Origin: Micropruina glycogenica
GTDB lineage: Bacteria; Actinomycetota; Actinomycetes; Propionibacteriales; Propionibacteriaceae
Direction of reading: 5' to 3'
Assembly: GCF_900289045.1 (NCBI RefSeq)
Contig: NZ_LT985188.1
Coordinates: 186,001-250,000 of the forward strand
Length of the DNA stretch: 64,000 nucleotides
Part shown: in pieces, positions 28,330 through 62,922 of the stretch
Numbering within the stretch: position 1 is the first letter of the stretch
How the letters are laid out: the number at the start of each line of letters is the position of its first letter
Notes under the pieces: generated by a model
Databases searched by the model: none
Told to the model about the DNA's origin: nothing
Seen by the model: the letters and a program-made list of their open reading frames with translations, nothing else
Made by a program: the position numbers and the translations under genes

Positions 28330-28405
28330 GGGCCTATAGCTCAATTGGCAGAGCAGCGGACTTTTAATCCGCGGGTTCTGGGTTCGATTCCCAGTGGGCC
28401 CACCA
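28330..28405 (+). tRNA. tRNA-Lys(TTT), probable integration site
   Basis: GGGCCTATAGCTCAATTGGC..., anticodon loop CTTTTAA (TTT), T-loop GGTTCGATT, acceptor GGGCCTA/TGGGCCC, discriminator A and encoded CCA. The only tRNA here with genomic CCA. An integrase starts 128 bp downstream. Confidence 0.96.
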
Positions 28406-28489
28406 GCAGTTTCAGGCTAGTGACTAGGCCAAACACTACAATCGTTCAGACGCACTGGTGGGCATAAATGGGCAGAGATACACTGCCTT

Positions 28490-39455: not shown

Positions 39456-39481
39456 GGCCGGCACCGCCGCAGAAGAATCCT

Positions 39482-46186: not shown

Positions 46187-48886
46187 ATGAGCAGCACGCT
46201 GAAGGCCGGTGGCGGCTCGAGCGCGTCCGCGTGGGCCGTCCACTCGGTGTGCGCCCGGTACCGGGGCACCGACCCGCTGGTCACCGGCCAGTCCCGGCGC
46301 CGGCTCGCGGCTCAACTCCATTTCCCCGACGTGTCCGCCGGCATCCCGGACGCCCGCTGGACGCGCGCCATGATCTTCGAGCGGTTGTGCCACGACGCCG
46401 CCTTCGCCGGCGAGGTGACGGCGCGCGCGGCCGGCTGGAGCGGGTTCGCCCGGCCGACGTCGGTCGCCCGGATCGACTGCGGCGTGTCCACCGACCGCAC
46501 CCTTACCGAACTGGCGAAAGCCGCCGAACGCGCCGCCGACGGCACGGCCACCCTGCTCTACAAGCTGGCCGCCCCCTACCCGGGCTTCGCGCCCGGTGAC
46601 GCCACCAACGTGCTGCCCGACCTCGCGGTGGTGGCGAACGGACCGGACGGACCGTCGCTCATCGTGGGGGACGTCAAGGACTACGAGCGCGTCCGCTCCC
46701 GCATCGACGACGGCCGGCTGCTCAAGGGGTTCCTGCAGGTCGCGATGGGCGCGTTCGCGTTCCGCCGCTGGGACGCCCTACCCGCCGCCCTCACGGTCAG
46801 TTCGCACGGCTTTCTCGCCGTCCCGCGCAGCGCGTTCTTGCAACCGACCGTGGAGGTGGAGGACCTCACCGACCACCTCGCCGAGGTCGAGGCACAGTGG
46901 CGCAGCCGCCTGACCGGTCAGTCGGACACCACCGTCGACGAGCGCGTCGCCGACTACGTGACCGGCCTGCCGCACCGCTTCGACCCGTCCAGTTGCCCGT
47001 CGTGTTCGCTGTTCAACTTCTGCCGGCACGAGCTGCGCGAGTCCGACGACCCGGACGCACTGCTCGAGGAGCTCGGCGTGCCGGAGAACGAGTGGCCGCA
47101 GGTCCGCCCCGTGGTGGACGGTCACGAGCCGCTGCCCGGCGCCAACGCGTCCACGGTGGCGCGGGTGCGTGCAACGGTAACCGGCGTGGTGGCGAGCACC
47201 GGCCAGCGGCGGCTGGACCCGGTCGGCCGCCCCGGAGCGGTCAACGTCGTCGCGGTGAAGAGCGATGCGGCCGCCCTCGGTTTCCACGGTGTCGGGGTGA
47301 GCCGCGAGACCGACGACGGGCCGACCCCGTGGCGGTTCGAGGTGTTCGTCGACCCACAGTCGGACGAAACGCGCCGCAGGGTGATGGCGATCGTGGGCAA
47401 GCAGATCGAACTGGCGATGGGGGCCAACCTGCGCCGCAACCCGACCAGCCCCGACCCGGTGCACGTGGTCGTTCCGGACGGCGCGACGGCCGACCTGCTC
47501 GCCAGCATCGCCGATCAGCTCGCCGGCGTCGAGATCAGCCGGCTGCGCTGGAAGCGAGACCAAGAGATGCGCCGCCCGATCCTCACCTTTGACGGGGAGC
47601 CCGCGGTGATGCCCAGGGCGCTGGAGGGCGCCCGGCGCACGGCGGTGTCGTTCCTGCTGGAGCACGACCGGGCGCGCATGCTGACGCTTCGCGACCCGGT
47701 GGTCGACCTGACCGGCGTGCTGGCGCGCCACTTCGTGCCGGGCGGCTCGTGGGTGGACGCGCGCCGCCTCGACTACCAGGTGGCGTGGGTGACGGCAACG
47801 GAGCCGGTCGACTACCGCGAGGTCTCCGACCGCATCGAGGCCAGCGATCACACCCCGGGGGCCCGGCTCGGCAACGACACGTCGAACGCCGTCCATCACG
47901 CGTTGCGCGAGGTGCGCCGCACCGGTGACGTGACCGACTACGAGAACCTGGTCACCGACGAGCTCCGCTACAAGGCCGCGACGGTGGACGCCGCGATCCA
48001 GGAGCTCGGCAACCTGCCCGACTCGAAGCTGCAGCCCGCGTACCGCAGCCTGGAGGGGGACGCGCAGAAGGTGTGGCGGCGGCGCAAACGGCTCCGCGCC
48101 TCCGACCTGGTCCGGTTTGGCCGCACCTACGCCTACTGGCGCAACTTGCTGGTCGACGTCATCCAGGCCGACGACAAGTGCGCCACTCAACTCGCCGTGC
48201 TGTCCAGCCCGGTGCGCGCCGCCGAGAAGGCGAACGACCCGGGCGACCGGGACGTGACGTGGGCGACGGTGGTCAGCGCCCGCCCGCTCACCCTGGACGT
48301 CGCGTCGCGCCGGTTCACCGACGGGGAGCGCGTCGTCCTGTTGGCGTGCGGCACCGACCCGTGGGTGGAGACCGACGGCGTCACCGTCACGCTGCAGGCG
48401 GGCGCGATCAAGCTGCGCGCGTTCCCGCTCGGTCCCCTCGAAGCGCAAAGGGGAGCGGACGATCGACCCACGCCCGGCCGCTTCCGCTGGGCGCCCGCCG
48501 TGGTTCCGCCCGTCCGGCCCGGGGACCGGCTGATCGTCGCCCGGCTCGACTGGTTCAACGCGCTGCGCCGCAAGGAGGAGTTCAACGTCGAACGGCCCAA
48601 GCAGGACGACCAGGCGGCGCCGAAGACGACGTGCGACGAGGGGTCGTACGCCGGCGACGCGGACGTGCACCGGTGGTGCTGCAAGCCGCACGAGTTGGTG
48701 GAGGCGGACTTCGCCGACGACCTGGCGCTGCGCCGTGCGCGCAACGAGCTGAACCCACAAGTGTGGCCGCCGGTGCTCGACGACGACGGGTTCGAAGTGC
48801 CGCCGGCGGGTAAGCCCACCGCGCGCACCGTCGACGTGCCCGACTCGGCCCCGCCCGAGGGGGTGACCGTTGACGAACTGGAGTGA
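46187..48886 (+). CDS. Cas4/AddB-like Fe-S PD-(D/E)XK nuclease protein
   Basis: An 899-residue protein, first in the defence operon. The N-terminal third has an early Cys (WAVHSVCARYRG), the nuclease core NVLPDLAVVANGPDGPSLIVGDVKDYE (D and D-x-K) and then CPSCSLFNFC, giving a split four-Cys cluster as in Cas4 and AddB. The rest (~350-899) has no family I recognise. AGAAGGGA lies before ATG 46187; the ORF is open 7 codons more. Probably processes DNA ends or acts with the helicase behind it. Stop overlaps the next gene by 17 nt. Nuclease call is from motifs only. Confidence 0.68.
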   Translation: MSSTLKAGGGSSASAWAVHSVCARYRGTDPLVTGQSRRRLAAQLHFPDVSAGIPDARWTRAMIFERLCHDAAFAGEVTARAAGWSGFARPTSVARIDCGVSTDRTLTELAKAAERAADGTATLLYKLAAPYPGFAPGDATNVLPDLAVVANGPDGPSLIVGDVKDYERVRSRIDDGRLLKGFLQVAMGAFAFRRWDALPAALTVSSHGFLAVPRSAFLQPTVEVEDLTDHLAEVEAQWRSRLTGQSDTTVDERVADYVTGLPHRFDPSSCPSCSLFNFCRHELRESDDPDALLEELGVPENEWPQVRPVVDGHEPLPGANASTVARVRATVTGVVASTGQRRLDPVGRPGAVNVVAVKSDAAALGFHGVGVSRETDDGPTPWRFEVFVDPQSDETRRRVMAIVGKQIELAMGANLRRNPTSPDPVHVVVPDGATADLLASIADQLAGVEISRLRWKRDQEMRRPILTFDGEPAVMPRALEGARRTAVSFLLEHDRARMLTLRDPVVDLTGVLARHFVPGGSWVDARRLDYQVAWVTATEPVDYREVSDRIEASDHTPGARLGNDTSNAVHHALREVRRTGDVTDYENLVTDELRYKAATVDAAIQELGNLPDSKLQPAYRSLEGDAQKVWRRRKRLRASDLVRFGRTYAYWRNLLVDVIQADDKCATQLAVLSSPVRAAEKANDPGDRDVTWATVVSARPLTLDVASRRFTDGERVVLLACGTDPWVETDGVTVTLQAGAIKLRAFPLGPLEAQRGADDRPTPGRFRWAPAVVPPVRPGDRLIVARLDWFNALRRKEEFNVERPKQDDQAAPKTTCDEGSYAGDADVHRWCCKPHELVEADFADDLALRRARNELNPQVWPPVLDDDGFEVPPAGKPTARTVDVPDSAPPEGVTVDELE

Positions 48887-50384
48887 CGTCACGTTCACGC
48901 CGCTCGTCCCCGCCCCTGACGCGAGGCACCACGAGGCGGCGGCGGCCGGCAACACCGCCGTGACCGCCGCCGCCCAGCGGGAGTTGCTGGCCGCGCTCAC
49001 CACCCCGCCGGACTCCGACGGGCGCGTCACCCACCTGCTGCTGAAGGCGGCCGCCGGCGCCGGCAAGTCGCACGCGCTGAAGCGGCTGATCGCCGCCGCC
49101 GCCGGCGCTCCCGGTACCCGGCGGGTCGGCGTCACCGCGTTCACGAACAACCAGATCAGGCCCCTCGCGCAGGACCTGGCCGGACAACTCGGCCGCGACC
49201 GGGTGTGCCTGCACCTGTCGAAGAAGGCGGCCGACGTCTTGCCCCCGGGCGTCACCACCGACATGACGGTCAGCACCACCGCCGCCGCCATCCCGCCCAC
49301 CGCCGACGTGGTGGTCGCCACCGCGCACAAACTGAAGGCGCCCGGCGAGCGCGGGCGCCTGGCGGGTCAACTCGGCGTCCCCGACGGCGACGCGCTGTTC
49401 GACGCGCTGTTCGTGGACGAGGCGTGGCAACTGCCGCACCACCTGTTCGACGCGATCAGCGGCGTCGCCCCGCTGATCGTCGGCGTCGGCGACGTGGGCC
49501 AGTTGCCGCCGCTGGAGATCGGCGCGAACCCGTGGCGCGGCGACGCGCGGCACAACCCGTACCGGGCGTGGCCGAACGCGTTCACCGGCCGGCCGGGCAC
49601 GTGGGAGAGGGAACTGCCCGCCGTGTGGCGACCGGCCGGCGAGGCGCTCGGTCTGTGGCGCGCGTTCTACCCGACCTGGGCGGAGTTGAACTCGGTGGCC
49701 GCCCCCGGCGAACGCACCGTCACCCTGCACGGCAACGTCGAGTCGGCCCCGCTGTGGCGCCACGTGGGCTCCGGCGCCCCCACCCTGGTGGAGGTGACCG
49801 GACTGCCCGACTCGGAGGCGCCCGACATCGACCTGCCGCTCACCGACCTGCTCGAGCGCTGGCTGGACGACCTGTTCACCGCCGGGTTCACCGTCGAGGC
49901 GCGGCGGTACGCCGACGACGGCACCCCCCTGGGCGAGACGGTGACAGACCGGCCCGGCGTGCGCGACGACGGCGACCCGCTGGTGGTGATCCTGGCAACC
50001 CGCAACCAGGCCGTCGACGACGCCACCGCCCTGGTCGAACGGCTGCGCCTCAAGCACGGCCTGCGCGAGCGCGATCTGGTCGCCTCCACCGTCGACTCGT
50101 GGCAGGGCCAGACCAACGCGATCACCGTCGCGCTCCACCCGCTCAGCGGGGCGACCGCGCTGGACGAGTTCAACTCCGCGTTCGGACGGCTGGCGGTCGC
50201 GTGCACCCGCGCCACCCACGGCCTGCTGGTGCTGGCCCGCGCCGGCCTGGACGACCTGCTCGCCGCCGCCCCCGCCCGCCCCGGCACCCCGTTCGGCGAG
50301 CCGGGCGTGCGCCAGTTGCCGCGCCAGACGCACCAGCGCATCGTGTCCGCGTTCACCCGAGCCACCGTCGACGTCACCTCGTAA
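48870..50384 (+). CDS. SF1 DNA/RNA helicase-like ATPase
   Basis: A 504-residue P-loop protein: Walker A LLKAAAGAGKSHALKRLI, Walker B ALFVDEAWQLPHHLFDAI, GVGDVGQLPPLEIG (motif III), ASTVDSWQGQTNAITVALHP (motif V) and AVACTRATHGLLVLAR (motif VI). This is the Upf1/RecD-like SF1 arrangement. TTG at 48870 is the start, inside the end of the previous gene; GAGGGGGTGACC is upstream. With the preceding Fe-S protein it forms a nuclease-helicase pair. Confidence 0.82.
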   Translation: MTNWSDVTFTPLVPAPDARHHEAAAAGNTAVTAAAQRELLAALTTPPDSDGRVTHLLLKAAAGAGKSHALKRLIAAAAGAPGTRRVGVTAFTNNQIRPLAQDLAGQLGRDRVCLHLSKKAADVLPPGVTTDMTVSTTAAAIPPTADVVVATAHKLKAPGERGRLAGQLGVPDGDALFDALFVDEAWQLPHHLFDAISGVAPLIVGVGDVGQLPPLEIGANPWRGDARHNPYRAWPNAFTGRPGTWERELPAVWRPAGEALGLWRAFYPTWAELNSVAAPGERTVTLHGNVESAPLWRHVGSGAPTLVEVTGLPDSEAPDIDLPLTDLLERWLDDLFTAGFTVEARRYADDGTPLGETVTDRPGVRDDGDPLVVILATRNQAVDDATALVERLRLKHGLRERDLVASTVDSWQGQTNAITVALHPLSGATALDEFNSAFGRLAVACTRATHGLLVLARAGLDDLLAAAPARPGTPFGEPGVRQLPRQTHQRIVSAFTRATVDVTS

Positions 50385-50398
50385 CCCCAGGAGCGCCC

Positions 50399-52534
50399 GT
50401 GTCCCGTCTGTCCGACCTGATCCGCGAAGCGAAGCGGCTCGACGCCGGCCTCGGCAACGAACTCGAGAAGGAGGTGCGGCACCTGCAGGAGCGGCGCGCG
50501 TTCGGGCTCAACTTCGAGCGGCACCAACCGGAGGCGGTGGACCTGTACGGGCGCCCGGTGCGGGTCGGCGACAAGGTGCGCATGCTGCCGCCCCGCGGAG
50601 AAACCGCCGCGCCGGACAAGCGCCTGTGGGTCGTCACCGGCGGCGCCACCGTCGACGGGCAGAGGCGCGCCGACCTGCGCGACCCGAAGACCGGCGACAC
50701 CGCCACCCACCCGGTGGACGACCTCGTGGTGGTAGCCGAGAACACCGACGTGATCTACCCGGGCCTGGTCAGCACCGGCAAGGTGGAACGGGGCGGAGAC
50801 AAGCCGTTCCACACGGTCATCAACGCCGAGAACTTGCACGCGCTGGAGGCGCTGCTGTACACCCACCGAGGCAAAGTCGACGCCATCTACATCGACCCGC
50901 CGTACAACACCGGCGCGAAGGACTGGAAGTACAACAACGACTACGTCGAGGGCGACGATCTGTACCGGCACAGTAAGTGGCTCGCGTTCATGGAGCGGCG
51001 GCTGAAGTTGGCGAAGGAACTGCTCAATCCCGAGGATTCAGTGCTCATCGTCACCATTGACGAGAAGGAGTACTTGCGGCTTGGGTTGCTCCTTGAGCAG
51101 ACCTTTCCGGGCGACTCTGTTGAGATGGTTACAACGGTCATAAGTGCGAAGGGAGTGGCCCGATTCGGCCAGTTCTCCCGGGTAGAGGAGTACATCTTCT
51201 GCGTTCGCCTAGGCCAACAGGAAGTAGGGCTCTCTGAAACAAACATGCTGGACGAATCACGGTCCGCGTCGGCCCAGATTGGGAAACCGGTCGATTGGCT
51301 CGGCCTTCGGCGGAGGGAGCCATCGGCTCGACGCGGAGCTCGGCCTAAGCAGTTTTACCCAGTTTTTGTCGACTCGGCATCTGGCTTTATCCACTCCGTT
51401 GGAGACTTTATCACCGACGCGGTAGATCGGCACTCGATCGAGGCTCCGCCGGGCACCTTCGCAGTCTGGCCGCTTCTCCCCAACGGCACGGAAGGACTCT
51501 GGGGAGTTACGCCCGACACCGCTCGGTCCTACCTCTCGGACGGATACCTTCGCTCTCGCAACTACAAGCCTGAAAAACGAACGGTTGCGGTTCAGTACCT
51601 CCCGAGCGGAACTGTGGCCGCAATTCGGGCGGGTGACATCAATGTCGAGGGCCGCGATGAGAGCGGTGGCGTCATTGCAACCTATAGAACCGCCAAAGGT
51701 GTCATTCCCAAGCGTGTCTGGAATATGACATCCCACAATGCAGAGACGCAGGGCACAAATCTGCTCTCAGTATTGCTTCCAGGCCGCAGATTTCCCTTCC
51801 CAAAGTCCATCTACGGAGTGGAAGATACTCTGCGATTCTTCACAAAGGACAAACCGGGCGCAACCGTCATTGATTTTTTTTCGGGCTCTGGTACAACCGC
51901 ACAAGCCATAATGCGCCTCAATAGGCAGGATGGCGGCCGTCGAACGTCCATAGCAATAACGAACAACGAGGTGGCCGCCGACGAGCAGCGCGCTCTGCGT
52001 CAGCGGGGCCTGCGTCCGGGCGACCCCGAGTGGGAGTCGCTCGGCATCTGCGACTACATCACGAAGCCGCGCATCGAGGCTGCCATCACCGGCCGCACAC
52101 CCTCCGGCGACCCCATCAAAGGCGACTACAAGTTCACCGACGAGTTCCCGATGGCCGACGGATTCGAAGAGAACGCCGAGTTCTTCACGTTGACCTACGA
52201 GGCGCCGCTGACGGTGTCAGCCGGTCACGCGTTCGCGCGGATCGCGCCGCTGCTCTGGTTGCGGGCCGGGTCGCGCGGTCGCCGGATCGAGTCGCTGGAG
52301 GACGGCTGGGACGTGGCCGAGGCCTACGGCGTGATCGAGCGGCTGGACGGGCTGGACCGGTTCGTCGACGCGCTCCGTGCGCAGCCCGAAGCGAAGGTGG
52401 CGTTCATCGTCACCGACGACGAGCGCCGGTTCCAGAGCGCGTGCGCTGCGCTGCCCGAGCGCGTCGAACCCGTCCGGCTCTACGAGAGCTACCTGCGCAA
52501 CTTCCAGATCGACGCGGTCAGGAGTTCGCGGTGA
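50399..52534 (+). CDS. Type III-like site-specific DNA methyltransferase
   Basis: A 711-residue DNA (probably adenine-N6) methyltransferase. Motif IV is YIDPPYNTGAKDW (DPPY); the SAM motif VIDFFSGSGTTAQAIM lies toward the C-terminus, as in beta-class Mod subunits. Residues ~220-500 would be the target-recognition region. That segment (DNA 51,040-51,960) is clearly lower in GC than its flanks. GTG 50399 has CAGGAG upstream. Coupled to the next gene (GTGA overlap). Target unknown. Confidence 0.9.
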   Translation: MSRLSDLIREAKRLDAGLGNELEKEVRHLQERRAFGLNFERHQPEAVDLYGRPVRVGDKVRMLPPRGETAAPDKRLWVVTGGATVDGQRRADLRDPKTGDTATHPVDDLVVVAENTDVIYPGLVSTGKVERGGDKPFHTVINAENLHALEALLYTHRGKVDAIYIDPPYNTGAKDWKYNNDYVEGDDLYRHSKWLAFMERRLKLAKELLNPEDSVLIVTIDEKEYLRLGLLLEQTFPGDSVEMVTTVISAKGVARFGQFSRVEEYIFCVRLGQQEVGLSETNMLDESRSASAQIGKPVDWLGLRRREPSARRGARPKQFYPVFVDSASGFIHSVGDFITDAVDRHSIEAPPGTFAVWPLLPNGTEGLWGVTPDTARSYLSDGYLRSRNYKPEKRTVAVQYLPSGTVAAIRAGDINVEGRDESGGVIATYRTAKGVIPKRVWNMTSHNAETQGTNLLSVLLPGRRFPFPKSIYGVEDTLRFFTKDKPGATVIDFFSGSGTTAQAIMRLNRQDGGRRTSIAITNNEVAADEQRALRQRGLRPGDPEWESLGICDYITKPRIEAAITGRTPSGDPIKGDYKFTDEFPMADGFEENAEFFTLTYEAPLTVSAGHAFARIAPLLWLRAGSRGRRIESLEDGWDVAEAYGVIERLDGLDRFVDALRAQPEAKVAFIVTDDERRFQSACAALPERVEPVRLYESYLRNFQIDAVRSSR

Positions 52535-55191
52535 AGTTCACGCTGAAGGACTACCAGGCCGAGGCCGTCGACCTGCTGCTGGAGCGGCTGGAGCGCGCCC
52601 AGTCCGACTACCGCGAGACCGGGTTGCGGTCGTCGGTCAGCCTGTGCGCGACCACCGGCGCCGGGAAGACCGTCATGGCCGCCGCGGTGATCGAGGCGCT
52701 GTTCAACGGGTCCGACGAGTTCGAACCCGACGAGGGGGCCGTCGTCGTCTGGTTCTCCGACGACCCGTCCCTGAACGAGCAGACCCGCAACCGGCTGCTG
52801 GAGGCGTCCGACAAGCTGTCGTTCACCGACCTGGTCACCATCGAGCCGCCGTTCTCGCAGCCGCGACTGGAGCCGGGCAAGGTCTACTTCCTGAACACCC
52901 AGAAGCTGTCGGTCACGTCCAAACTGACGCGCGGCACGCGTGACGTGGCGGACGAGAACCGGTTCGAGCAGTTCCAGGCCCCCGACGATCAGGCGTGGAC
53001 GATCTGGGACACGCTCAACGACACGATCCTGGACGACGAGTTGACCCTCTACCTGTTTCTGGACGAGGCGCACCGCGGGTTCGGCGGCAAGGGCACGTCG
53101 AGGGACAAGTCCACCATCGTGAAGCGGCTGGTGCACGGGTCGAACGTGGTCACCCCCGCCCCGATCGTGGTCGGCATCTCCGCCACCATCGGCAGGTTCG
53201 CGACCGCGATGAGCGAGGCGGAGTTTCAGCAGGACCGGCGGGCACTCGAGCCGGTCAACGTGGACGGCGCCCGGGTGCAGGAGTCCGGCCTGCTGAAGGA
53301 CACCGTCGTGCTCGACTTCACCACCGAGGCGGGCGTGTTCGACCGCGCCCTGGTGCGCCGCGCCGCCGAGAAGCTGCAAGCGTCCACGGAGGCGTGGGCG
53401 GAGTACGCCGCCAGCCAGAAGGACCCCAACGCGGCCGTGTCGCCGCTGCTGGTGCTGCAGATCCCGAACAAGCCCGACCACGACCTTGTGGGTGGTGCGC
53501 TGGACGTGATCGGCGAGGTGATCCCGTCGGTAACGCAGCAGGCGGTGCGGCACGTGCTCGGCGACCACACGGCGCAGGAGTTCGGCAGTTGGACCGTCAA
53601 CTGGATCGAGCCGCAGTCCGTGGAGGACCGCACCGACGTGCGCGTGCTGGTGGCGAAGGAGGCGATCAGCACCGGCTGGGACTGCCCGCGCGCCGAGGTG
53701 ATGGTGTCGTTCCGCACCGCGAGGGAGCACACCCACATCACCCAGATCCTGGGCCGGATGGTGCGGAACCCGCTCGCTCGAAGGGTGCCGGGCGACGACC
53801 GGCTCAACTCGGTGAACTGCCTGCTGCCGTACTTCGACCGCACCACCGCCGGCAAAGTGGTGAAGTTCCTGACCGGCCAGATCGCCGACATTCCGGGCAC
53901 CGGCAAGAAGGTGCTGCTGGACGGGCGCGAGATGGTGGTCAACCCGACCCTGGCCGACGACGGGGAGTTGTGGGACGCGTGGCGCGCGATGCCGACGCAA
54001 CTGCTGCCGCAGCGCGGCGTGCGTCCCGTGAGCAGGCTGCTGCAGTTCGCGACCGAACTGGCCAACGACGGGCTGCGTCCGACCGCGTGCACCGACGTCG
54101 AGGAGGCGGTGCTGCGCGAACTGGACGCGTGCGCGATCCGGTACGCCCGCAAGGTGGACTCCGCGCGCGAGGAGGTGCTCACCATCCACGGCCAATCGAT
54201 CGCCGGCACCACCGGCGAGCAGACGCTCGCGTACACCGAGTTCACCATGCACGCCGACGATCAGGCGGTCGCGGTCGCGTTCAAGGACGCCAAGGCGGCG
54301 TTCAGCGACGTCGCCCGGGCGTACGTCAAGCACCACGTCGGCGACGCCGAGGACGACTTCGCCAACCCGGTGCGCGACGCGATGGTGGAGTGCGCCGCTC
54401 TGGCGACCGTCCCGGAGATTCGCGAGACCGTGGACGCGCTGGCGAACGGCCTGTTCGACCGGTGGGACTACGAGCATCGGCAGGGCATCGAGCGGCTGGG
54501 CGATCTGCGGCGCGACGCCTACCGCGAGATCAAGGCGCAGGCGCCCGACCCGCAGGTGACGTCGCTGATCCGGCCGCGGGTGCGGCTGGAGGACTTCCAG
54601 GAGCTCGACGCGAACGACCAGGTGACGATGGCGCCGCTGGTCGCGAAGCACCTGATGTCGGACGACGCGGGCCACTTTCCGCTGTCGCGGCTGAACGAGT
54701 GGGAGCGGACGGTGGTGCTCGCCGAACTGGCGAAACCGACCACCGTCGCCTGGTACCGCAACCCGCCCCGCTCCGCCGGCGACTCGCTGTGCGTCGCGTA
54801 CCGCAACGAGTTCGGCAACTGGCGCGGCATGTACCCCGACTTCGTGTTCTTCGAGCGCGTCGACGGGCGGGTCGTGCCGTCCATCATCGACCCGCACCGG
54901 CACGACCTGGACGACGCGTTGCTGAAGGTCCGCGCCCTCGCCGGGTTCGCCGAACAGTTCGGGGACCGGTTCGGGCGCATCGAGTCGCTGGCGGAGGTGA
55001 ACGGCAAGATGCGACGGCTCGACCTGAAGAGCGCGCGCGTGCGCAAGGACGTTCGCTACTGGAACCGCGACGTGAGCGACCTGTACCTCGACGCCGGCGA
55101 ATTGATCACCGGGGTGGCGGCTGTACAGCCGGGGCGGCCGCCGGGTCAGTCCGGACGTCCGAACCAGTCCACGCCTCTGTTCGGGGACTGA
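52531..55191 (+). CDS. DEAD/DEAH helicase with C-terminal Res-like domain
   Basis: An 886-residue SF2 helicase: Walker A SLCATTGAGKTVMAAAV, DEAH box LFLDEAHRGFGGKG, ISTGWDCPRAEVMVSFR and THITQILGRMVRNP (motifs V and VI). The C-terminus has YPDFVFFERVDGRVVPSIIDPHRHDLDDALLKVRAL, the place of the nuclease in type III Res proteins, but the D-x-K/E-x-K lysine is not obvious (IIDPH). It probably drives the restriction side of the methyltransferase. GTG 52531 overlaps it. Confidence 0.85.
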   Translation: MKFTLKDYQAEAVDLLLERLERAQSDYRETGLRSSVSLCATTGAGKTVMAAAVIEALFNGSDEFEPDEGAVVVWFSDDPSLNEQTRNRLLEASDKLSFTDLVTIEPPFSQPRLEPGKVYFLNTQKLSVTSKLTRGTRDVADENRFEQFQAPDDQAWTIWDTLNDTILDDELTLYLFLDEAHRGFGGKGTSRDKSTIVKRLVHGSNVVTPAPIVVGISATIGRFATAMSEAEFQQDRRALEPVNVDGARVQESGLLKDTVVLDFTTEAGVFDRALVRRAAEKLQASTEAWAEYAASQKDPNAAVSPLLVLQIPNKPDHDLVGGALDVIGEVIPSVTQQAVRHVLGDHTAQEFGSWTVNWIEPQSVEDRTDVRVLVAKEAISTGWDCPRAEVMVSFRTAREHTHITQILGRMVRNPLARRVPGDDRLNSVNCLLPYFDRTTAGKVVKFLTGQIADIPGTGKKVLLDGREMVVNPTLADDGELWDAWRAMPTQLLPQRGVRPVSRLLQFATELANDGLRPTACTDVEEAVLRELDACAIRYARKVDSAREEVLTIHGQSIAGTTGEQTLAYTEFTMHADDQAVAVAFKDAKAAFSDVARAYVKHHVGDAEDDFANPVRDAMVECAALATVPEIRETVDALANGLFDRWDYEHRQGIERLGDLRRDAYREIKAQAPDPQVTSLIRPRVRLEDFQELDANDQVTMAPLVAKHLMSDDAGHFPLSRLNEWERTVVLAELAKPTTVAWYRNPPRSAGDSLCVAYRNEFGNWRGMYPDFVFFERVDGRVVPSIIDPHRHDLDDALLKVRALAGFAEQFGDRFGRIESLAEVNGKMRRLDLKSARVRKDVRYWNRDVSDLYLDAGELITGVAAVQPGRPPGQSGRPNQSTPLFGD

Positions 55192-55234
55192 CTCGGGCCG
55201 GGGGATCCGGTTCGGCGTTCGTGAGCGCGCACCG

Positions 55235-55250
55235 GCGTCGATCTCGACGC
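55235..55250. terminator. Bidirectional hairpin between convergent defence operons
   Basis: GCGTCGA-TC-TCGACGC (55235-55250) is a perfect 16-bp palindrome, extended by GTGAGCG/CGCTCAC further out, directly after the stops of both operons. Confidence 0.55.
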
Positions 55251-58200
55251 TCACGGCTCTTCGTTCACGTCTGGCCCGGGCCAGTCCGGCGCGCTCAGGT
55301 CCAGACGGAGGGCGTCCAGTGTGTCCGGAGCGGACTGGGTGTACCGCCGCTTCAGCAGCTCGAGCATGTCCTCCTGGAGCGGTTGCCCGAACGTGAGGCG
55401 GTAGAGGGCGACGTCGCGTTTGATGTTGGCGAGCCGGGACTCGTCGACGCTCAGGCCGAACGGCGACACGTGTCGCTCGATCTTCGCGGGCCCCGGGTAC
55501 ACCCAGTGCGGCGCGAAGTCGCCGAGGTTCGCCTCCTCGTCCTGGGCCAGGCGGTACGCGGCGCGCCACGGGTTCGGGTCGTCGGAGGCGAGGATCGCCT
55601 CCGCGTGCCGGTGGGCGATGTTCTTGCGCACCGCGTGCCCGTCGTACCGGTCGACGCGGCCCTCCCGCTGCTCGAAGTCGATCGGGCTCGCGGGCGTGTT
55701 CCAGTGCAGCAGGGAGTGACTCCACCAGTGAAAGTCGATGCCCTCCTGACCGACGCTGGTCGTGGCGAGCACCAGCGGCCAGAACGGGCTGTTGAACGCT
55801 TGACGGACCACGGGCAACCGGTTGCTCTCCTGCTCCTGCCGGCGACCGCCGTAACGCAGCGCGAACCGCGCCGGGAGAGTGAGGCGCTCCCTCGGGTTGT
55901 CGGGGTTGAACAGTTCGTAGCGGGCGGGGCGCAACGCGACGGCGGTCGCAGCTGCTCGGGCGATCTCCATGAGCTTGGCGTCGTCCAGCTCGGCCGAACC
56001 CAGGTTGACGGCCAGGTGGTGCAGATACTCGTCCATGACGGCCTGCAGGTTGCCCCACGCGCAGTAGGCCAGCACGGCTCGCCAGTACACGGCGTCCGGG
56101 TTCAGCTGGTCGAGCAACAGAGTCGTCTCCGGCCGGGAGAACAGCGTCCGGAACGACGAGGCGAGTTGGGCCGCGGCGAGCCACAGTCCACCGGGCGTCA
56201 CCTTGGGGTGGTCGTGGCTGATGCGGCGTAGGGACCGGTACGCGACGTTGGCGGGCGAGTGCGCAGCCACGTCGGCCAGCACCTGCAGCACCTCGTCGGT
56301 GATGGCGCGATCCTGCGCCGAGCCACGCGTCCGGAATGCCTCGCGCACGTGGTTGGTGAGCAGCTCCGGTTCACGGTCCCGGGCTTGTGACGGGGCGTTC
56401 CCGTCCGTGGGCTCCTCCTCGTCCTCGACGCCCGCGAGCGCGGGGACCATGTCGGCGATGCCGAGCCCCGGCGGGAACGAGTCCGGCCGGCGGAACAGCT
56501 CGAACCAGTGCGACGCGAGGCCGACGGTGTCCTCGTCCGCGACCGGTTCCACCTCCGGTCGGAGCCGGTCGACGATCGCTTGGCGCAGGGACGACGCGTC
56601 CACGGGCGCGCCCGTCTCCCGGCGGTGGTCCCTCGGGTCGGCCAGTTCCGCCGACCCGGGGGCGGGCCAGAACAGCGCGAGAGTCGCCATGCTGGCGGGT
56701 CGGTCGCGCTCTCGGTCCATGCGGAAGGCGAGTCGTCCGCGCCGGCCCTTCCGCTCGGTGTCGCGCTCGTCGGGCGTCTTGTCGCGGAACGAGTCACCGG
56801 CCGACAGCCGGTCGGACTCGTAGCTGAGCAGGGTGGCGACGGCGCTCGGGGTCGCCATCCACGACGAGAAGACGAGGCGCTTCGTCACGCGGGACGCGAA
56901 CTGCTCGGCGTACGGGCCGCCCGGGGCCAGGTAGGGCAGCGAGGGCGGAACCCACAGCAGCTTCCACCACCCGGCGTCGACCGTCTCGTCCGCGAGCCGC
57001 CGCAGCCGCGCGTTCGCCAGATCCACCGCCTCGTAGGCCTTGATGGCGTCCGTGTCCAGTCGCTGTGTCCTCTTCAGCAGGCGTCGCACTCCGGTCGCCC
57101 GTGAGGGGTCCTTGAGCGCCTCCCTGACCTTCTCGGCGATCTTGTACCCGTCCATGAAGTTCGCGAAGTACGGCGCGGACTTCCAGTACTCCACGGAGAA
57201 CGGCGCGCCCACCTTACGGGCGACGTCGCGCATCGCGACGAACCCGAGCAGGTCCTGCGCGGGGATGGAGTCGAGCCTGCTGAACGACTCGGTCGCCATC
57301 GTCGCGCCCACGACGCGTGGACGCTCGGTGCGCGTCATGAGGCGCAAAAGCAGACGCCTGAGTTCCTGCGTGACCTGGTCGGCCGGTTCGCCGGCGACGA
57401 CCGCTTTCCGGTAGTCGGCCAGCGCGGTCGCGATGTCGCCGCGGGGGTCACCGGCGCTCCCGTCGGCGAGGAACTCGACCATCGTCATGAAGTCCTTGTG
57501 GTGATCCTCGCCGAACTGCGCCTCTTCGGCGTAGGTGAACGGCTTGTACGGGGTGGCCGACAGCAGCAGGGTCCTCGCGGCGTCGTACTCGTACAGGCTG
57601 TGGGCGAGTTCGCCGGCCTCGGTCTGCTTGTTGAGCAACTGACGGAACCGCTGGAACTCGTCCAGAATCACGAGGTCGGGGGTGAGCAGGTGGACGCTCT
57701 CGCGCGCCAGCGTGGATCGAAGGTCGCCGACGAGGCCCAAGACCCGATGCCAGCTTCCGGGTCCGAGCTCACCCCGCTGCTGAAGGTCCAGGAGTTCGGC
57801 GAACCGGTCCAGCAGGCTCGCGGGTGCGCCGTCCGGCCTTCGTTCGGCCGCCGTCAAGAAGGCGTCGACGACGTTCTGATCGATGTCGTCCCGCAACTCG
57901 TCCCGCAGCCGCGACACGTACTGGCGTAACCGCTCCCACGAGGACACGCTCCCTTTCAGGAGTTGGTGAGCGGCCTGCGCGCGGTCGCCGAACAGTTCCA
58001 GCCGTCGCTCCAGCAGCAAGTAGAGCATCGCCCGCTCCTCCGCCTTGCCCGACCTCCACCCCTTCTCGAACGACGTACCGGGAGTGAAGGAGACGAGGTT
58101 GACCGGTTTGAGGAACCGGGCGCCGCCCTCGGGCGCGAAGTGGCGCGAGTGCTTGGCGAGCAGCGTGAGTCTGCTGGCGATGCCGTGGTGCGGGTCACCG

Positions 58201-58487
58201 GTGACGTTCAGCTTGCGCAGGTTCTGCCGGGCCAGGTCCGTGTTGGAGCAGACGTACACGATGTCGATGCGGTCGACCGAGTCGTCGTGCTGCAACTCCT
58301 CGATCGTGCGCGCGATCACGCCGCGGGCGACGATCGTCTTGCCCAACCCGGTTTCGTCGGCGACCAGGAAACGGTTCGAGTCCCGCTGGCGGTAAAAGCG
58401 GTCGATGATGTGCTCGACCGTGTTCCGCTGAAACCGAGTGAGGCCGGCCAGCACCGGCGCCGCCGAGAACACGAGGTCAGTGGTCAT
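55251..58487 (-). CDS. SNF2/DEAD-like helicase of the leftward operon
   Basis: A 1,078-residue SF2 ATPase: Walker A FLVADETGLGKTIVARGVI, Walker B LVILDEFQRFRQL, LLLSATPYKP (motif III) and, in the second lobe, SVGQEGIDFHWWSHSLLHWNTPASPIDFEQREGRVDRYDGHAVRKNIA. The order matches helicases of restriction and defence systems. Last of a three-gene operon; the ATG overlaps the PLD stop by 4 nt. No nuclease domain seen in it, so cutting would come from the PLD protein. Confidence 0.86.
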   Translation of the reverse strand: MTTDLVFSAAPVLAGLTRFQRNTVEHIIDRFYRQRDSNRFLVADETGLGKTIVARGVIARTIEELQHDDSVDRIDIVYVCSNTDLARQNLRKLNVTGDPHHGIASRLTLLAKHSRHFAPEGGARFLKPVNLVSFTPGTSFEKGWRSGKAEERAMLYLLLERRLELFGDRAQAAHQLLKGSVSSWERLRQYVSRLRDELRDDIDQNVVDAFLTAAERRPDGAPASLLDRFAELLDLQQRGELGPGSWHRVLGLVGDLRSTLARESVHLLTPDLVILDEFQRFRQLLNKQTEAGELAHSLYEYDAARTLLLSATPYKPFTYAEEAQFGEDHHKDFMTMVEFLADGSAGDPRGDIATALADYRKAVVAGEPADQVTQELRRLLLRLMTRTERPRVVGATMATESFSRLDSIPAQDLLGFVAMRDVARKVGAPFSVEYWKSAPYFANFMDGYKIAEKVREALKDPSRATGVRRLLKRTQRLDTDAIKAYEAVDLANARLRRLADETVDAGWWKLLWVPPSLPYLAPGGPYAEQFASRVTKRLVFSSWMATPSAVATLLSYESDRLSAGDSFRDKTPDERDTERKGRRGRLAFRMDRERDRPASMATLALFWPAPGSAELADPRDHRRETGAPVDASSLRQAIVDRLRPEVEPVADEDTVGLASHWFELFRRPDSFPPGLGIADMVPALAGVEDEEEPTDGNAPSQARDREPELLTNHVREAFRTRGSAQDRAITDEVLQVLADVAAHSPANVAYRSLRRISHDHPKVTPGGLWLAAAQLASSFRTLFSRPETTLLLDQLNPDAVYWRAVLAYCAWGNLQAVMDEYLHHLAVNLGSAELDDAKLMEIARAAATAVALRPARYELFNPDNPRERLTLPARFALRYGGRRQEQESNRLPVVRQAFNSPFWPLVLATTSVGQEGIDFHWWSHSLLHWNTPASPIDFEQREGRVDRYDGHAVRKNIAHRHAEAILASDDPNPWRAAYRLAQDEEANLGDFAPHWVYPGPAKIERHVSPFGLSVDESRLANIKRDVALYRLTFGQPLQEDMLELLKRRYTQSAPDTLDALRLDLSAPDWPGPDVNEEP

Positions 58488-60322
58488 CGCTTCCCCCGGG
58501 GGAGCTTGTCGAGCGCCTTCTTCACCGATACCCAGAACTCATCGAAACCGTCGGGAAGCACGGACCGCCCCGACTCGGTCTGTTGCAGGCGCGAGACGAG
58601 CTGGTCGAGGTCGGCCAGCGCCTCGCGACGATCCGCCAGCGCGCCGAGCACCAACTCGAGGACGCCGGTCCACCCGCCGCCACCGAACCCCCACCTTCCC
58701 GCCCCGTCACCGGCGTTCTGCTCGTTCGACACCCACAGTCCGTCCCAGTTGCCCAGGCCGAGCAGCAGCGTGAGGAAACGCAGGAACTTTTCTGGGGTGT
58801 CGACCTGACGGGCGAGGATCTCGTCGAGCCGTGACGGCGGGTCGTTCACCAGGACGGCGTGGACGACGGTCCCGAGCTCGTTCCCGTCGGGATCCGTGGC
58901 GTTCAGGATGAGGAACGGCGTGACGTTCGGCGTGGCGACGCCGCCGAACGTGAGATCGGCCGGCTCGACGCGCGCGAGGGCGTGCGCGGTGCCCGGGACG
59001 GTGAGCAGGCCCGCCGTGACCGAGAAACCGTCCCGAACGGGCACCGGCGCGAGGCTGGCGAGGGCCAGCCGATGGGCGTCACCGTCAGGACTGACCGTGA
59101 GGGTGAAGCGGACCTCCGCCAGTGCGCGAAGCTGATTCTGCAGCGCCCGCAGTGCGTCGTCGGACGGGTCGACCTCGGCGCCCCCCGTTGCGGCATAAGT
59201 CTCCAGCAGGTCGCGGAACGGGCTGTCGTCGCCCAGGAACGCGTCGATGCCGAGCTCTCGTGCACGACCCGCCAGCTCGACGGCGAACTCGACGTTGCCG
59301 GCGTATGCCGACGACGTCGCGTTGGGCGAGCCGACGAACAGGTGCGCCCGTCCGTAGCTCCGCTCCACGATCGTGATCTTCGCGTGGAGGTCGGTGACCG
59401 AACCGTTCTCCTGCGGATCGACCACCACGTGGGGCTCCGGGCCAGCGATAGATGCCACATGGTCGGCTTCCTGCGGCTCGTGCAGAGAAGCGGCCTGATT
59501 CAGCACGAGCACACGGCCCACGCGCTGCAAGGTCGCGGATGACAGTCGATCCAGCTCGGCGGGTCGTGACACCAGCGTGACGTCCTTGCTGCGACCCGTG
59601 AGGTGCGCGATGCCCTGGTCGTTGCAGAACGGCGACACCACGAGGTGCCTGCGTCCGGAGAAGTTCACCGGGTCGCTCGCGTCAGGCACGCCGAACGCGT
59701 GGAAGGCGAGCTCCTGGACACCCTGCGGTGCGGTCCACGCGACGTGCGAGGCCCGCTCCGCGAGGTCGCGCAATCGCTCGAGTCGAGAAGGGTGGAGCGG
59801 TTCGACCGCCAGTTCGGGCAGGTGCGAAATGAGGGCTTTCAGCGGAGCGTTGGCGGGAACGGCGTCGTAAGAGTGCGTCCCGTTCAGCGTCACGACCGCG
59901 TCCCACGCCTGGCTGCCGGCGAGGTTTCGAGTCGAGCACAACAGCCGGTACTGGTCCGGCAGCCCTTCCGCCGCGTAACACAGGAACCACACCTTCGGGT
60001 GGAACAGGAAGCCCGCCCGGGGACGCCGGACGGGGTGCACCATCGGCTCCAGGAACGCCATCAGGTCGGACGCCTGCCGAGGCACGGAGATCTGCCCGGC
60101 CTGGCAGAAGACGTCGACGCGATCGGTGCAGGAGCGGACCGCCTCGAGTGCGGCGACCGGGTCGGGCGAGTCGCGCAGCTCGAACGACGCGAACGCCAGG
60201 GGCGGGACGAGCGCGGTGGTCAGGTCGAGGGTGAACGTGGTCGCCACCGCGGACAGCAGCCGATAGTCGCGCGGGGGGCGCAGCTGGTCGAGCAGGACGA
60301 CCCGGGCGTCCGGCTCAAGCAT
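58484..60322 (-). CDS. Phospholipase-D-like protein with two HKD motifs
   Basis: A 612-residue protein. The first motif is FLFHPKVWFLCYAAEG followed by STRNLAGSQAWD; the second is DLHAKITIVERS followed by GSPNATSSAY. Both have H-x-K and a downstream Asn/Gly-Ser, so a full two-HKD active site is possible. PLD-like proteins in defence systems cut DNA or RNA without metal. Overlaps the upstream gene by 8 nt and the downstream gene by 4 nt. Confidence 0.83.
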   Translation of the reverse strand: MLEPDARVVLLDQLRPPRDYRLLSAVATTFTLDLTTALVPPLAFASFELRDSPDPVAALEAVRSCTDRVDVFCQAGQISVPRQASDLMAFLEPMVHPVRRPRAGFLFHPKVWFLCYAAEGLPDQYRLLCSTRNLAGSQAWDAVVTLNGTHSYDAVPANAPLKALISHLPELAVEPLHPSRLERLRDLAERASHVAWTAPQGVQELAFHAFGVPDASDPVNFSGRRHLVVSPFCNDQGIAHLTGRSKDVTLVSRPAELDRLSSATLQRVGRVLVLNQAASLHEPQEADHVASIAGPEPHVVVDPQENGSVTDLHAKITIVERSYGRAHLFVGSPNATSSAYAGNVEFAVELAGRARELGIDAFLGDDSPFRDLLETYAATGGAEVDPSDDALRALQNQLRALAEVRFTLTVSPDGDAHRLALASLAPVPVRDGFSVTAGLLTVPGTAHALARVEPADLTFGGVATPNVTPFLILNATDPDGNELGTVVHAVLVNDPPSRLDEILARQVDTPEKFLRFLTLLLGLGNWDGLWVSNEQNAGDGAGRWGFGGGGWTGVLELVLGALADRREALADLDQLVSRLQQTESGRSVLPDGFDEFWVSVKKALDKLPRGKR

Positions 60323-61544
60323 CGCGGTCAGCCGTCGGCTCGGGCGAACTGAGGCCCTGATGGATGTCGGCCAGGATGGCGCGGACGGTCGGCCAGCGGT
60401 AGTTGAGGGCCCCGCTTCCGGAGTCGCCGCTCCAGGAGGCGAGCAGCCGGTCGTTGATCAGGCGCGACTGCGACTTCTTGAGGCGGCGTTCCCGGCTTTC
60501 GACGATCTGCCTGGCGCGAGGGTCGTCGAGCGCCGCCTGGGCGGAGCCGTCGAGGACCGCTGAGATCCAGTCGTTCACGAACGTCCGGGTGCTCCACGAG
60601 ATCCGCGCGTTCAGTCCGGTGACGTGCGCCCAGAATCGGTCCAGGTTCCACTCCCGAAGCCTTCGACGATCACTGTCCGCCTCTTCGAGCCAATCGCGAT
60701 ACCGCTGTTCGTGGCGGGTCGCCGCATCGACGACCCGGTTGTGGCCGGCTGCTTCGTACCGCCGCGCGACCATCACGTTGTAGAGCAGGGAGGCGCCGTG
60801 CATGGTGAAGGAGAACAGCTCGGCGTGGCGCAGCACGTCCTGGGTCTGGTCAGGAGCGGTGCGGCACAGCGGGTCATGCCACGGAAGGTCGATGGCTGGG
60901 GCGGGTGCTCGATCTGCCGTAACCAAGTGGGAGAGCAGGGTGTCGGGCACGCTCGCGAGGATCCGTTCCCGCAGCCATTGAGCCTCTCTCGGAGCGAGGT
61001 CGAGCCCGCCGGGGAGGGCGTGGGGGAAACCGATCGGGGCGTCGGGGAGCGTGGGGTGCCAACTGCCCCGAGCTCGTTCGGCGAGTTCGTCGGAGCCGCT
61101 CTCACGTCCCGAACGGGAGAGTGTCAGCTGTTCGGGGTCGGTGTCGTTGCGAAGGATTCCGTACTGCTGGAGACCGGCCCAGTAGATGGTGGACGGAAGA
61201 TTCTTCACCGCTCGCCCCTGAACGCGGCCGATCACGCCGAGGTGGTCGGTCTTCTGCAACACCGTGACCAGGTCCCGATCGGTGGCGCGCCGCAGCGCTC
61301 GCTGCTTGGCGGGATCGCGCTCTTTGGTGGCCGCGTAGCGGTAGGTCCACGGCACGATCAGGAAGTAGCGCGCACGGGTGAGCAGGACCGTGGTGCCCGG
61401 GAACAGCGTGTCGCTCAGCACCTGGCGGACCTGGCCGATCCCGAGTTCGTCGCGACTCTCGGGCTGGGTGAACAGTGCGATCAGTTCGCGGACGCGGCGC
61501 TGCTCGTCGGCCGAGGTGTCGAGCCACGCAATGCTCGAGACCAT
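60315..61544 (-). CDS. DUF6361 family protein
   Basis: A 409-residue protein. MVSSIAWLDTSADEQRRVRELIALF...RDELGIGQVRQVLSDTLFPGTTVLLTRARYFLIVPWTYR is the DUF6361 signature. ATG 61544 has GGGAGGG upstream and fits family N-termini; the frame is open to 61595. Function unknown, but it heads an operon with a PLD protein and helicase. The C-terminus (ESRERRLKKSQSRLINDRLLASW) looks helical and basic. Confidence 0.82.
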   Translation of the reverse strand: MVSSIAWLDTSADEQRRVRELIALFTQPESRDELGIGQVRQVLSDTLFPGTTVLLTRARYFLIVPWTYRYAATKERDPAKQRALRRATDRDLVTVLQKTDHLGVIGRVQGRAVKNLPSTIYWAGLQQYGILRNDTDPEQLTLSRSGRESGSDELAERARGSWHPTLPDAPIGFPHALPGGLDLAPREAQWLRERILASVPDTLLSHLVTADRAPAPAIDLPWHDPLCRTAPDQTQDVLRHAELFSFTMHGASLLYNVMVARRYEAAGHNRVVDAATRHEQRYRDWLEEADSDRRRLREWNLDRFWAHVTGLNARISWSTRTFVNDWISAVLDGSAQAALDDPRARQIVESRERRLKKSQSRLINDRLLASWSGDSGSGALNYRWPTVRAILADIHQGLSSPEPTADRDA

Positions 61545-61625
61545 GAACCCTCCCGCGCGTTCAGCGTCGATGGCCCCGGGATTTCCGTGCCCCATCGCGT
61601 CCCATCTTGCAGGCGCGCAGCGCTG

Positions 61626-62211: not shown

Positions 62212-62830
62212 GCGCAGGCGACCATCGATGATCAGCGCGTGCGGGCCGCGTTGCAGATGTGCCGCACGTCACACCGGCGGCACTTGAACGCGGCCGGTTT
62301 CGGGTCGAAGCGGCGCTTGCGCAATCCCTCACGCGTCGTCAGTTCGCCGGACTCGGCGGACTCCACCGCTGCGTCGGTCACGTCCACGTCGAGGCGCCGG
62401 ACGGCGCCGAGGTCGTGGATGACGAGGCGGCAACTTCCTGGCCCTCACGACGCCCGGCGTCGACATCGATCTGCAGCTGCCACGATTCGACCTGATCGAC
62501 CGTAGCGGTCTTGTGGCCGATGATGGCGAGCCTGCCAACCCGTCCGTCGTGCTCGTCGTAGATCACGTCGGCGCTCCGGACACGAGCCCGTCCAGGTATA
62601 CCTCGAAAGGTCGCTCGGTTGCTCCACGTGCGCAGCAGGTCCGCGGGATGGCCTTCGACGTCGGCTGCACCGGAGTCCGCGCCCGGTCGCGTATCTCCTC
62701 GTGCGCCACGCCAAGGTCGTGACCGCACGGCTGCGGGTTCAGGGGTGGGCCCTGCCGGTGTCCGCGCACATGTTCTACGAGGAGGGTGCCTGGCACTGGT
62801 CGATGACGAAGGAAACGTCGCGGGCTGCAA
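62212..62830 (-). pseudogene. RecB/AddB-type PD-(D/E)XK nuclease remnant
   Basis: Three frames give parts of one domain: EEIRDRARTPVQPTSKAIP and ATERPFEVYLDGLVSG; then ADVIYDEHDGRVGRLAIIGHKTATVDQVESWQLQI, where the usual catalytic D-x-K is G-H-K; then VIHDLGAVRRLDVDVTDAAVES and the cluster cysteines FKCRRCDVRHICNAA before the stop. These are typical of the C-terminus of UvrD/AddB helicase-nucleases; the helicase part is gone. At least two frameshifts. Confidence 0.6.
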
Positions 62831-62922
62831 GAAGTAGCGAGCCTGCTTCAGTTATGGCGACCGGCCGCTCCCTTGAGTCGCCTGCATTGGCCAGGGTGGG
62901 TCGCCGGGGACGGCGTGCAACG

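Follow-up and report, generated by a model that had tools for sequence, protein, structure and literature searches.

In type III restriction-modification (R-M) systems, Mod marks the DNA, and Mod-Res detects sites without the mark and travels along the DNA; the nuclease site of Res has the consensus PD...ExK. The clearing of restricted phage DNA is usually credited to RecBCD or AddAB. Mod and Res genes are part of the locus described here, which lies in a 64,000-nt stretch of contig NZ_LT985188.1 of Micropruina glycogenica (this whole stretch is the window, and coordinates are counted from its first letter). Four rightward genes, g1, g2, g3 (Mod) and g4 (Res), face three leftward genes which encode ZacC, ZacB and ZacA. 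The products of g1 and g2 are predicted to be a nuclease and a helicase.

Several described systems resemble parts of this locus. Dna2 and the bacterial Dna2-like protein Bad (available text of PMC7430649) combine a Cas4-type iron–sulfur (Fe-S) nuclease and a superfamily 1B (SF1B) helicase in a single chain. Hachiman HamAB is a two-gene nuclease-helicase defence complex (available text of PMC12278908). According to the available text of PMC5704561, UvrD-Cas4, Mod, Res and Schlafen genes form a neighbourhood, and solo-Cas4 genes adjoin R-M genes in some DPANN archaea. The likeness to DISARM, BREX and Hma lies in methylase, helicase and phospholipase D (PLD) parts; Hma is defined by HmaA, HmaB and HmaC (available text of PMC8565338).

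We read the stretch as a probable composite defence island, in which two units, with the division of labour set out below, were pushed together on a mobile element. Unit A would be a restriction system with at most five genes, of which four are present here (g1, g2, Mod and Res) and the other was formerly a convergent UvrD-Cas4 gene. Unit B would be the self-contained Zac operon. The units are taken to act independently unless shown otherwise. The defence identity given to the cassette in a preliminary description of this DNA is upheld. Zac profiles and UvrD-Cas4 beside Mod-Res were already known; the g1-g2 pair is unnamed, and no published description of it was found in the open-licence literature. 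This two-gene pair, which often stands by different restriction systems, is a more interesting part of the locus than the seven-gene cassette.

Identity and distribution of the two operons

Seven open reading frames (ORFs), four rightward and three leftward, were confirmed at 46187-61544, all open and placed as previously described. The g1 and g2 genes overlap by 17 bp and a gap of 14 bp separates g2 from Mod; further overlaps measure 4, 4 and 8 bp, one of 4 bp being that between Mod and Res, which lies directly 3' of Mod. These overlaps and gaps fit two operons lying tail to tail across 59 bp. The hairpin at which the operons were said to meet is no stabler than shuffled sequences (z -0.36, 65 of 200 shuffles equally stable) and was discarded as a special feature.

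Mod is a beta-class methyltransferase related to EcoP15I Mod. It matches the PADLOC profile MTase_III (PDLC03645) with 856 bits over positions 1-705 of 709, Pfam N6_N4_Mtase at 2.9e-20, and the EcoP15I Mod structures 4zcf (E 1.2e-17) and 6k0w (2.1e-22). The adjacent Res matches Pfam ResIII (8.3e-12) and, weakly, PADLOC REase_III (8.4e-8), and contains the ATPase motor motifs of superfamily 2 (SF2). The pair therefore resembles EcoP15I-type systems by a homologous Mod and an adjacent downstream Res-like SF2 motor. It differs by the two extra upstream genes, g1 and g2, and by the C-terminal nuclease site of Res, which reads PD...DPH throughout the family (DPH in 19/19 and PD in 18/19 aligned sequences, four of which come without g1-g2). 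Because these relatives without g1-g2 also carry DPH, the altered site is a property of the Res family, and the idea that it results from the pairing with g1-g2 was rejected. The alteration makes it uncertain whether Res itself cuts.

The leftward operon is, by its profile matches, ZacABC, which is already profiled in PADLOC. ZacA matches with 415 bits (profile positions 1-394 of 396; Pfam DUF6361 at 1.1e-62), ZacB with 548 bits (1-583 of 586) and ZacC with 1074 bits (5-1016 of 1019). All three proteins are full length and in the same gene order, so that the operon of the window differs in nothing but its neighbour. The start of ZacA is the ATG at 61544; in a longer ORF, which opens at 61595, the first residue covered by the PADLOC match is number 18. 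In ZacB, H108, K110, N133 and H313, K315, N334, E345 are invariant in seven ZacB sequences. The literature search found no published description of Zac, and DUF6361 gave 0 papers.

The Mod/Res, DUF6361 and PLD parts of the preliminary description are confirmed by these Pfam and PADLOC matches, by the likeness to EcoP15I Mod and by the H-K-N sets in 7/7 ZacB. The absence of a named system stands for g1 and g2, which have no PADLOC match, and falls for the leftward half, which the PADLOC hidden Markov models name nearly end to end. That the cassette is not a plain DISARM or BREX holds: among the seven genes, Pfam and PADLOC gave no match to DrmB (DUF1998), PglZ or BrxC/PglY. The likeness to DISARM consists of local helicase-motif matches to DrmA and DrmD, a local resemblance between the helicase parts of ZacC and DrmD/DpdE, and a weak DrmC similarity of ZacB. 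Hma was also dismissed, as the seven genes gave no PADLOC match to HmaA, HmaB or HmaC.

The two operons occur apart in most of the genomes and plasmids read, which is the very finding that the preliminary description had named as telling against its proposal of a single seven-gene system. In a sample of 396 genomes of the phylum, 2 contain g1, 5 contain ZacB and 7 contain Mod, and g1 accompanies ZacB or Mod solely in the genome of the window. Zac stands without g1-g4 in 4/4 of the other Zac genomes of this sample (flanks read; one ends at a contig edge). Plasmids of Cronobacter, Mesorhizobium and the archaeon Halomarina also carry it as a free-standing operon, without g1-g4 in 3/3 plasmids read; ZacB relatives occur in 38 plasmid records, and in 6 of these the match covers at least 80% of ZacB. 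Conversely, g1-g4 stand without Zac within 38.7 kb on 2/2 Rhodococcus plasmids, and 11 of the 12 genomes with g1-g4 in the genome scan described below have no ZacB match anywhere. Mod-Res without g1-g2 was read in four genomes.

The g1-g2 pair and its partners

The g1 protein has no Pfam, NCBIfam or PADLOC match at E 0.001 and no PHROGs match at 0.01. Its AlphaFold2 model (33-row alignment, pLDDT 88.1, pTM 0.89) was compared with known structures using VIA, which aligned residues 1-297 to Cas4 (7mi4, Z 10.5 over 206 residues), MGME1 (9.5) and Dna2 (5eaw, 7.2 over 201 residues). Foldseek also returned MGME1 and Cas4 (E 0.018-0.07, probability 0.94-0.96). The catalytic residues D145, K164 and Q184 are present in 34/34 rows and D162 in 33/34; of the cysteines C22, C270, C273 and C279, the last three are found in 34/34 rows and C22 in the 20/20 rows which reach that position. 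The predicted fold is that of a Cas4-type Fe-S nuclease with its four cysteines. A C-terminal cluster (C816-H828-C831-C832-H835), separate from the Fe-S cysteines, is invariant (34/34) and is perhaps a second metal site. Residues 344-618 resemble RNase T (VIA, Z 8.8 over 161 residues); an active exonuclease in this RNase H-like middle part was not retained, the fold alone speaking for it at a Z near the tool's common level. Membership of the TM0106 family (TIGR03491) was rejected too, since there is no NCBIfam match and hhalign against the TM0106 protein of the same genome, used as one sequence, gave a probability of 0.4%.

The model of g2 (pLDDT 85.1, pTM 0.86) matches Dna2 first in Foldseek (5ean, E 1.2e-13), followed by Ighmbp2, Sen1 and Upf1 at about 1e-13; VIA ranks coronavirus nsp13 (Z 22.5), Ighmbp2 (21.0) and UvrD (20.6) highest. 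Walker A and DEAWQ show little or no variation across 30 rows. The model has the Upf1-like SF1B helicase fold, the class that includes Dna2. A sequence search against solved structures found no match for g2 (searched as a profile) or Res (as a single protein). Conserved residues and predicted folds together uphold the earlier reading of g1 as an Fe-S PD-(D/E)XK protein and of g2 as an SF1 helicase.

Taken as a pair, g1 and g2 resemble a Dna2 divided over two proteins, the helicase class of the models being firmer than the name. They differ from Dna2 and Bad in that they are separate genes in the loci read, in the extra RNase H-like domain and C-terminal Cys/His cluster of g1, and in often standing beside restriction genes. 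The pair is not Hachiman: g1 and g2 have no PADLOC match and g1 no Pfam match, and models of HamA (DUF1837) and HamB are presumably present in both libraries. Some results speak against the nuclease-helicase assignment or its Dna2 label. Foldseek gave nothing at E <= 0.001 for g1, so that the nuclease call comes from one aligner (VIA) together with the residues, the Z of 7.2 for Dna2 being within this tool's common range; for g2, Dna2 is absent from the 50 best VIA rows.

A scan with two peptide patterns over the genomes of 84,980 species, which would miss distant relatives, found 42 loci, all in Actinomycetota; the nuclease-helicase pair is the conserved core. In 41/42, g1 is followed by g2, and locus L051 ends at a contig edge; in the remaining locus, L052, only remnants of the two are left. 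In the 396-genome sample, the g2 profile finds the two genomes that have g1 and one weak third. Two Rhodococcus plasmids add two g1-g2 loci. Viral contigs gave pattern matches, but none could be confirmed as a relative of g1 or of ZacA.

The neighbourhood of the pair was read in 45 loci (42 from the scan, two from the Rhodococcus plasmids, and the window), counting partners within the stretch examined. These partners are Mod-Res (15 loci), a second kind of Res-Mod (2), type ISP enzymes (6), GmrSD (4-5, depending on the threshold), UvrD-Cas4 (11) and Zac (3). In 27/44 loci, a restriction enzyme or Zac is the sizeable gene closest to the pair (15 Mod, 2 Res-Mod, 6 ISP, 3 GmrSD and 1 Zac); this count leaves out L052, where g1 is a remnant, and still takes a neighbour as direct when only ORFs shorter than 100 aa intervene (L037, L039). 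When the partners are mapped on the g1 tree, type III requires 5 changes (shuffled mean 12.8) and is clustered, while ISP requires 6 (shuffled mean 5.8) and is not. This tree has 45 rows, L005 and L043 being from the same genome, and partner labels were assigned by hand, with L029 labelled "none". By these labels, the partners of g1-g2 change, type III less often.

Pairwise identities, computed without the near-copies L005 and L008, co-vary between g1 and g2 (r 0.91, 41 loci), g1 and UvrD-Cas4 (0.88, 11 loci) and g2 and UvrD-Cas4 (0.98, 10 loci). The co-variation of g1 with Res is weaker (r 0.60, 14 loci), and that with the whole of Mod is not clear (r 0.17, p 0.12, 14 loci), which counts against the reading proposed here. 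When Mod and 13 relatives are divided into regions (near-copy L008 left out), residues 1-120 and 601-711 track Res (r 0.68-0.84) and g1 (0.42-0.72), and the core, 121-600, tracks neither. Mod therefore seems to be a mosaic, whose recognition core is swapped by recombination, while its two ends remain together with Res, g1, g2 and UvrD-Cas4.

The proposed working of unit A is as follows. Mod would methylate host sites. On unmodified sites Mod-Res would be triggered, and would translocate or cut; g1-g2 would then load on the ends or the single-stranded DNA that this leaves, and degrade them processively, like Dna2/AddAB-type enzymes. Judging from fold, pairing and neighbourhood, g1-g2 is probably an ATP-driven nuclease-helicase which finishes DNA attacked by its restriction partner. 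UvrD-Cas4 would have been a second engine of the same unit.

It is conceivable, and we hold this only tentatively, that g1-g2 is a general restriction companion which plugs into whichever module adjoins it (type III, ISP, GmrSD type IV, perhaps also BREX and Zac). The pair would load on breaks or stalled translocation products and destroy the DNA; it would remain in place while the restriction modules on either side are exchanged, with Zac as the latest to take the UvrD-Cas4 slot. If so, a dedicated, mobile split-Dna2 pair stands by several unrelated restriction classes, and some restriction systems come with an end-processing machine of their own.

The loci with other neighbours bring up the doubtful alternative that g1-g2 is a stand-alone two-gene defence, a damage-sensing nuclease-helicase like HamAB, which merely clusters with restriction systems. 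Indeed, 17/44 loci have neither a restriction enzyme nor Zac as nearest sizeable neighbour (L048 ends at a contig edge), plain chromosomal genes flank the pair in L018 and L042, and some loci stand amid ordinary genes, such as those of RNase J or a major facilitator superfamily transporter. However, direct adjacency in 27/44 loci and co-variation with Res and UvrD-Cas4 exceed what loose clustering in islands would give.

Dna2/AddAB-type folds also serve repair, and the fold matches of g1/g2 include AdnAB and AddAB. That the pair is a host repair or anti-restriction factor, which protects from self-cleavage or resects breaks for recombination and is not an attack enzyme, is nevertheless unlikely: its patchy spread (2/396 genomes), its presence on plasmids and its changing partners fit defence better.

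Further genes were seen near the pair. BREX genes for BrxD and PglZ are present in L026, and LeoA dynamin in L034. In L040 (15080-16198, + strand), a gene for a fusion of a TIR domain with a DNA/RNA non-specific endonuclease lies one gene from g2. In L036 (14332-19413, - strand), the gene of a 1693-aa DndH/HerA-like protein runs convergent to g2, and the opposite flank of the pair holds a type ISP gene. In Nocardia elegans (L052, 10001-10754), remnants of g1 and g2 lie side by side.

UvrD-Cas4, Zac and the proposed assembly of the island

A relic of UvrD-Cas4 was found in the window by tblastn with the UvrD-Cas4 proteins of 11 relatives (best E 1e-31), and its family was assigned by Pfam. In the loci of 6 relatives, UvrD-Cas4 is convergent and directly follows Res, with gaps of 28-168 bp; the relic is 7.04 kb from Res, and the interval is filled by Zac and a DUF1643 gene. 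Because the relic lies beyond Zac, an insertion of Zac between Res and UvrD-Cas4 is most likely. UvrD-Cas4 adjoins type III genes in 10/17 type III loci versus 1/28 others (Fisher test, p 5.5e-5, uncorrected for kinship and for general richness in defence genes). Together with a Schlafen-type helicase in 4/45 loci, this recalls the published neighbourhood; the g1-g2 pair is not described in the available text of PMC5704561, and the window has the relic in place of an intact UvrD-Cas4 beside Mod-Res. The island would thus have grown by the dropping of a whole operon between two genes of an older system, leaving a relic and mimicking one cassette.

PLD parts cut and SNF2 parts translocate. In unit B, ZacC would translocate on DNA, the PLD site of ZacB would cut, and ZacA would be a sensor or an adaptor. 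On the ZacA tree, the window protein groups with a stand-alone Zac copy (support 87/85) and the Nocardioides and Intrasporangium copies (L024/L029) form a separate pair (100/99). The simplest account of this tree is at least two meetings of Zac with g1-g2, a single one being possible.

Several observations weigh against two units joined only in this way. Five of the 15 type III loci (L007, L008, L016, L020, L044) show neither UvrD-Cas4 nor Zac in the stretch examined, which makes a five-gene ancestor less than certain. The break in UvrD-Cas4 may predate the arrival of Zac, and the AspBHI-like gene which abuts the relic at 62701 may have removed its 5' part. In Nocardioides silvaticus (L024/L103), the only other genome found in which Zac joins all four of g1-g4, the genes are co-directional and in a different order from the window (g1, g2, Mod, Res, DUF726, ZacA, ZacB, ZacC). 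In a metagenome-assembled genome of Intrasporangium (L029), a convergent Zac with broken frames comes right after g2, without Mod-Res, and in Janibacter (L101) a type ISP gene stands between g1 and Zac, which are 13 kb apart. Zac is found in 4/40 g1-g2 genomes versus 4/395 others (Fisher test, p 0.003, uncorrected for kinship or defence richness, with Dermacoccus G307 on both sides; 40 g1 genomes were searched, those of L027 and L052 being left out). Since adjacency recurs and Zac is enriched in g1-g2 genomes, some link between the two is possible. Mod is more strongly enriched (11/40 versus 3/394), and in Tomitella Zac is on a different contig from g1-g2.

These cases could also mean that Zac replaced UvrD-Cas4 as the second helicase-nuclease arm of g1-g4, the seven genes being a young functional unit. 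Zac does occupy the slot where UvrD-Cas4 often stands, its direct adjacency is seen more than once, and the stretches examined show no intact UvrD-Cas4 in 3/3 Zac-adjacent loci (window, L024, L029). We find this improbable, as there are three cases only, the five type III loci above have neither in the stretch examined, and Zac, free-standing elsewhere, seems not to need the other genes.

The single seven-gene system of the preliminary description, in which Mod marks self while Res/Dna2-like and Zac helicase-PLD engines jointly attack unmarked DNA, could appeal to the seven open frames, to the same seven genes plus DUF726 in N. silvaticus and to the enrichment of Zac, but it is very improbable and was rejected: in the majority of genomes and plasmids read the halves are found apart, Zac joins g1-g4 in just 2/15 type III loci (window and L024) with differing gene orders, the ZacA of the window groups with stand-alone Zac and not with the L024/L029 pair, and the relic points to a later junction.

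On the Mesorhizobium plasmid (L011, 2113-16937), Zac directly follows an unfused PD-(D/E)XK and UvrD pair and a multiubiquitin/ThiF set, and this nuclease-helicase pair recalls the company seen in the window.

Feature coordinates and the host element

Features of the locus and of the element that carries it
Feature	Position	Strand	Description
attL	28361..28406	+	46-bp 3' part of tRNA-Lys
TrwC-type relaxase-helicase	35574-39464	-	in element
HipA-like kinase gene	40881-42155	-	in element
g1	46187..48886	+	predicted nuclease subunit, 899 aa: N-terminal Cas4/MGME1-type PD-(D/E)XK, RNase H-like middle domain, C-terminal Cys/His cluster
g2	48870..50384	+	predicted SF1 helicase subunit, 504 aa, Dna2/Upf1-like; TTG start
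g3/Mod	50399..52534	+	type III Mod (beta-class N6/N4 DNA methyltransferase), 711 aa
g4/Res	52531..55191	+	type III Res-like SF2 ATPase, 886 aa; C-terminal PD...(I/V)DPH replaces PD...ExK
convergent junction	55192..55250		59 bp between g4/Res and ZacC
ZacC	55251..58487	-	SNF2/RapA-like SF2 helicase, 1078 aa
ZacB	58484..60322	-	two-HKD phospholipase-D-type nuclease, 612 aa
ZacA	60315..61544	-	DUF6361 protein
UvrD-Cas4 relic	62232..62706	-	frameshifted C-terminus (UvrD + PDDEXK_1), three frames, still ends in Cys motif
AspBHI-like methylation-dependent restriction gene	62701-63999, runs past window	+	RE_AspBHI_N 1.8e-59, Mrr_cat
TOTE-type AEP primase-helicase fusion	L077 1768-4149 = G000:C1:250767-253148		AEP-TOTE 5.3e-71; near right end of element
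attL exact repeat	G000:C1:254875-254920		7.3 kb past cassette end, 4.9 kb beyond window, 40.5 kb from attL

The cassette is located within a predicted 40.5-kb tRNA-Lys integrative element. An integrase gene adjoins the tRNA-Lys, and an imperfect third att copy (82%) lies at G000:C1:255249-255287. A gene related to the TrwC gene of the window stands upstream of g1-g2 in L028.

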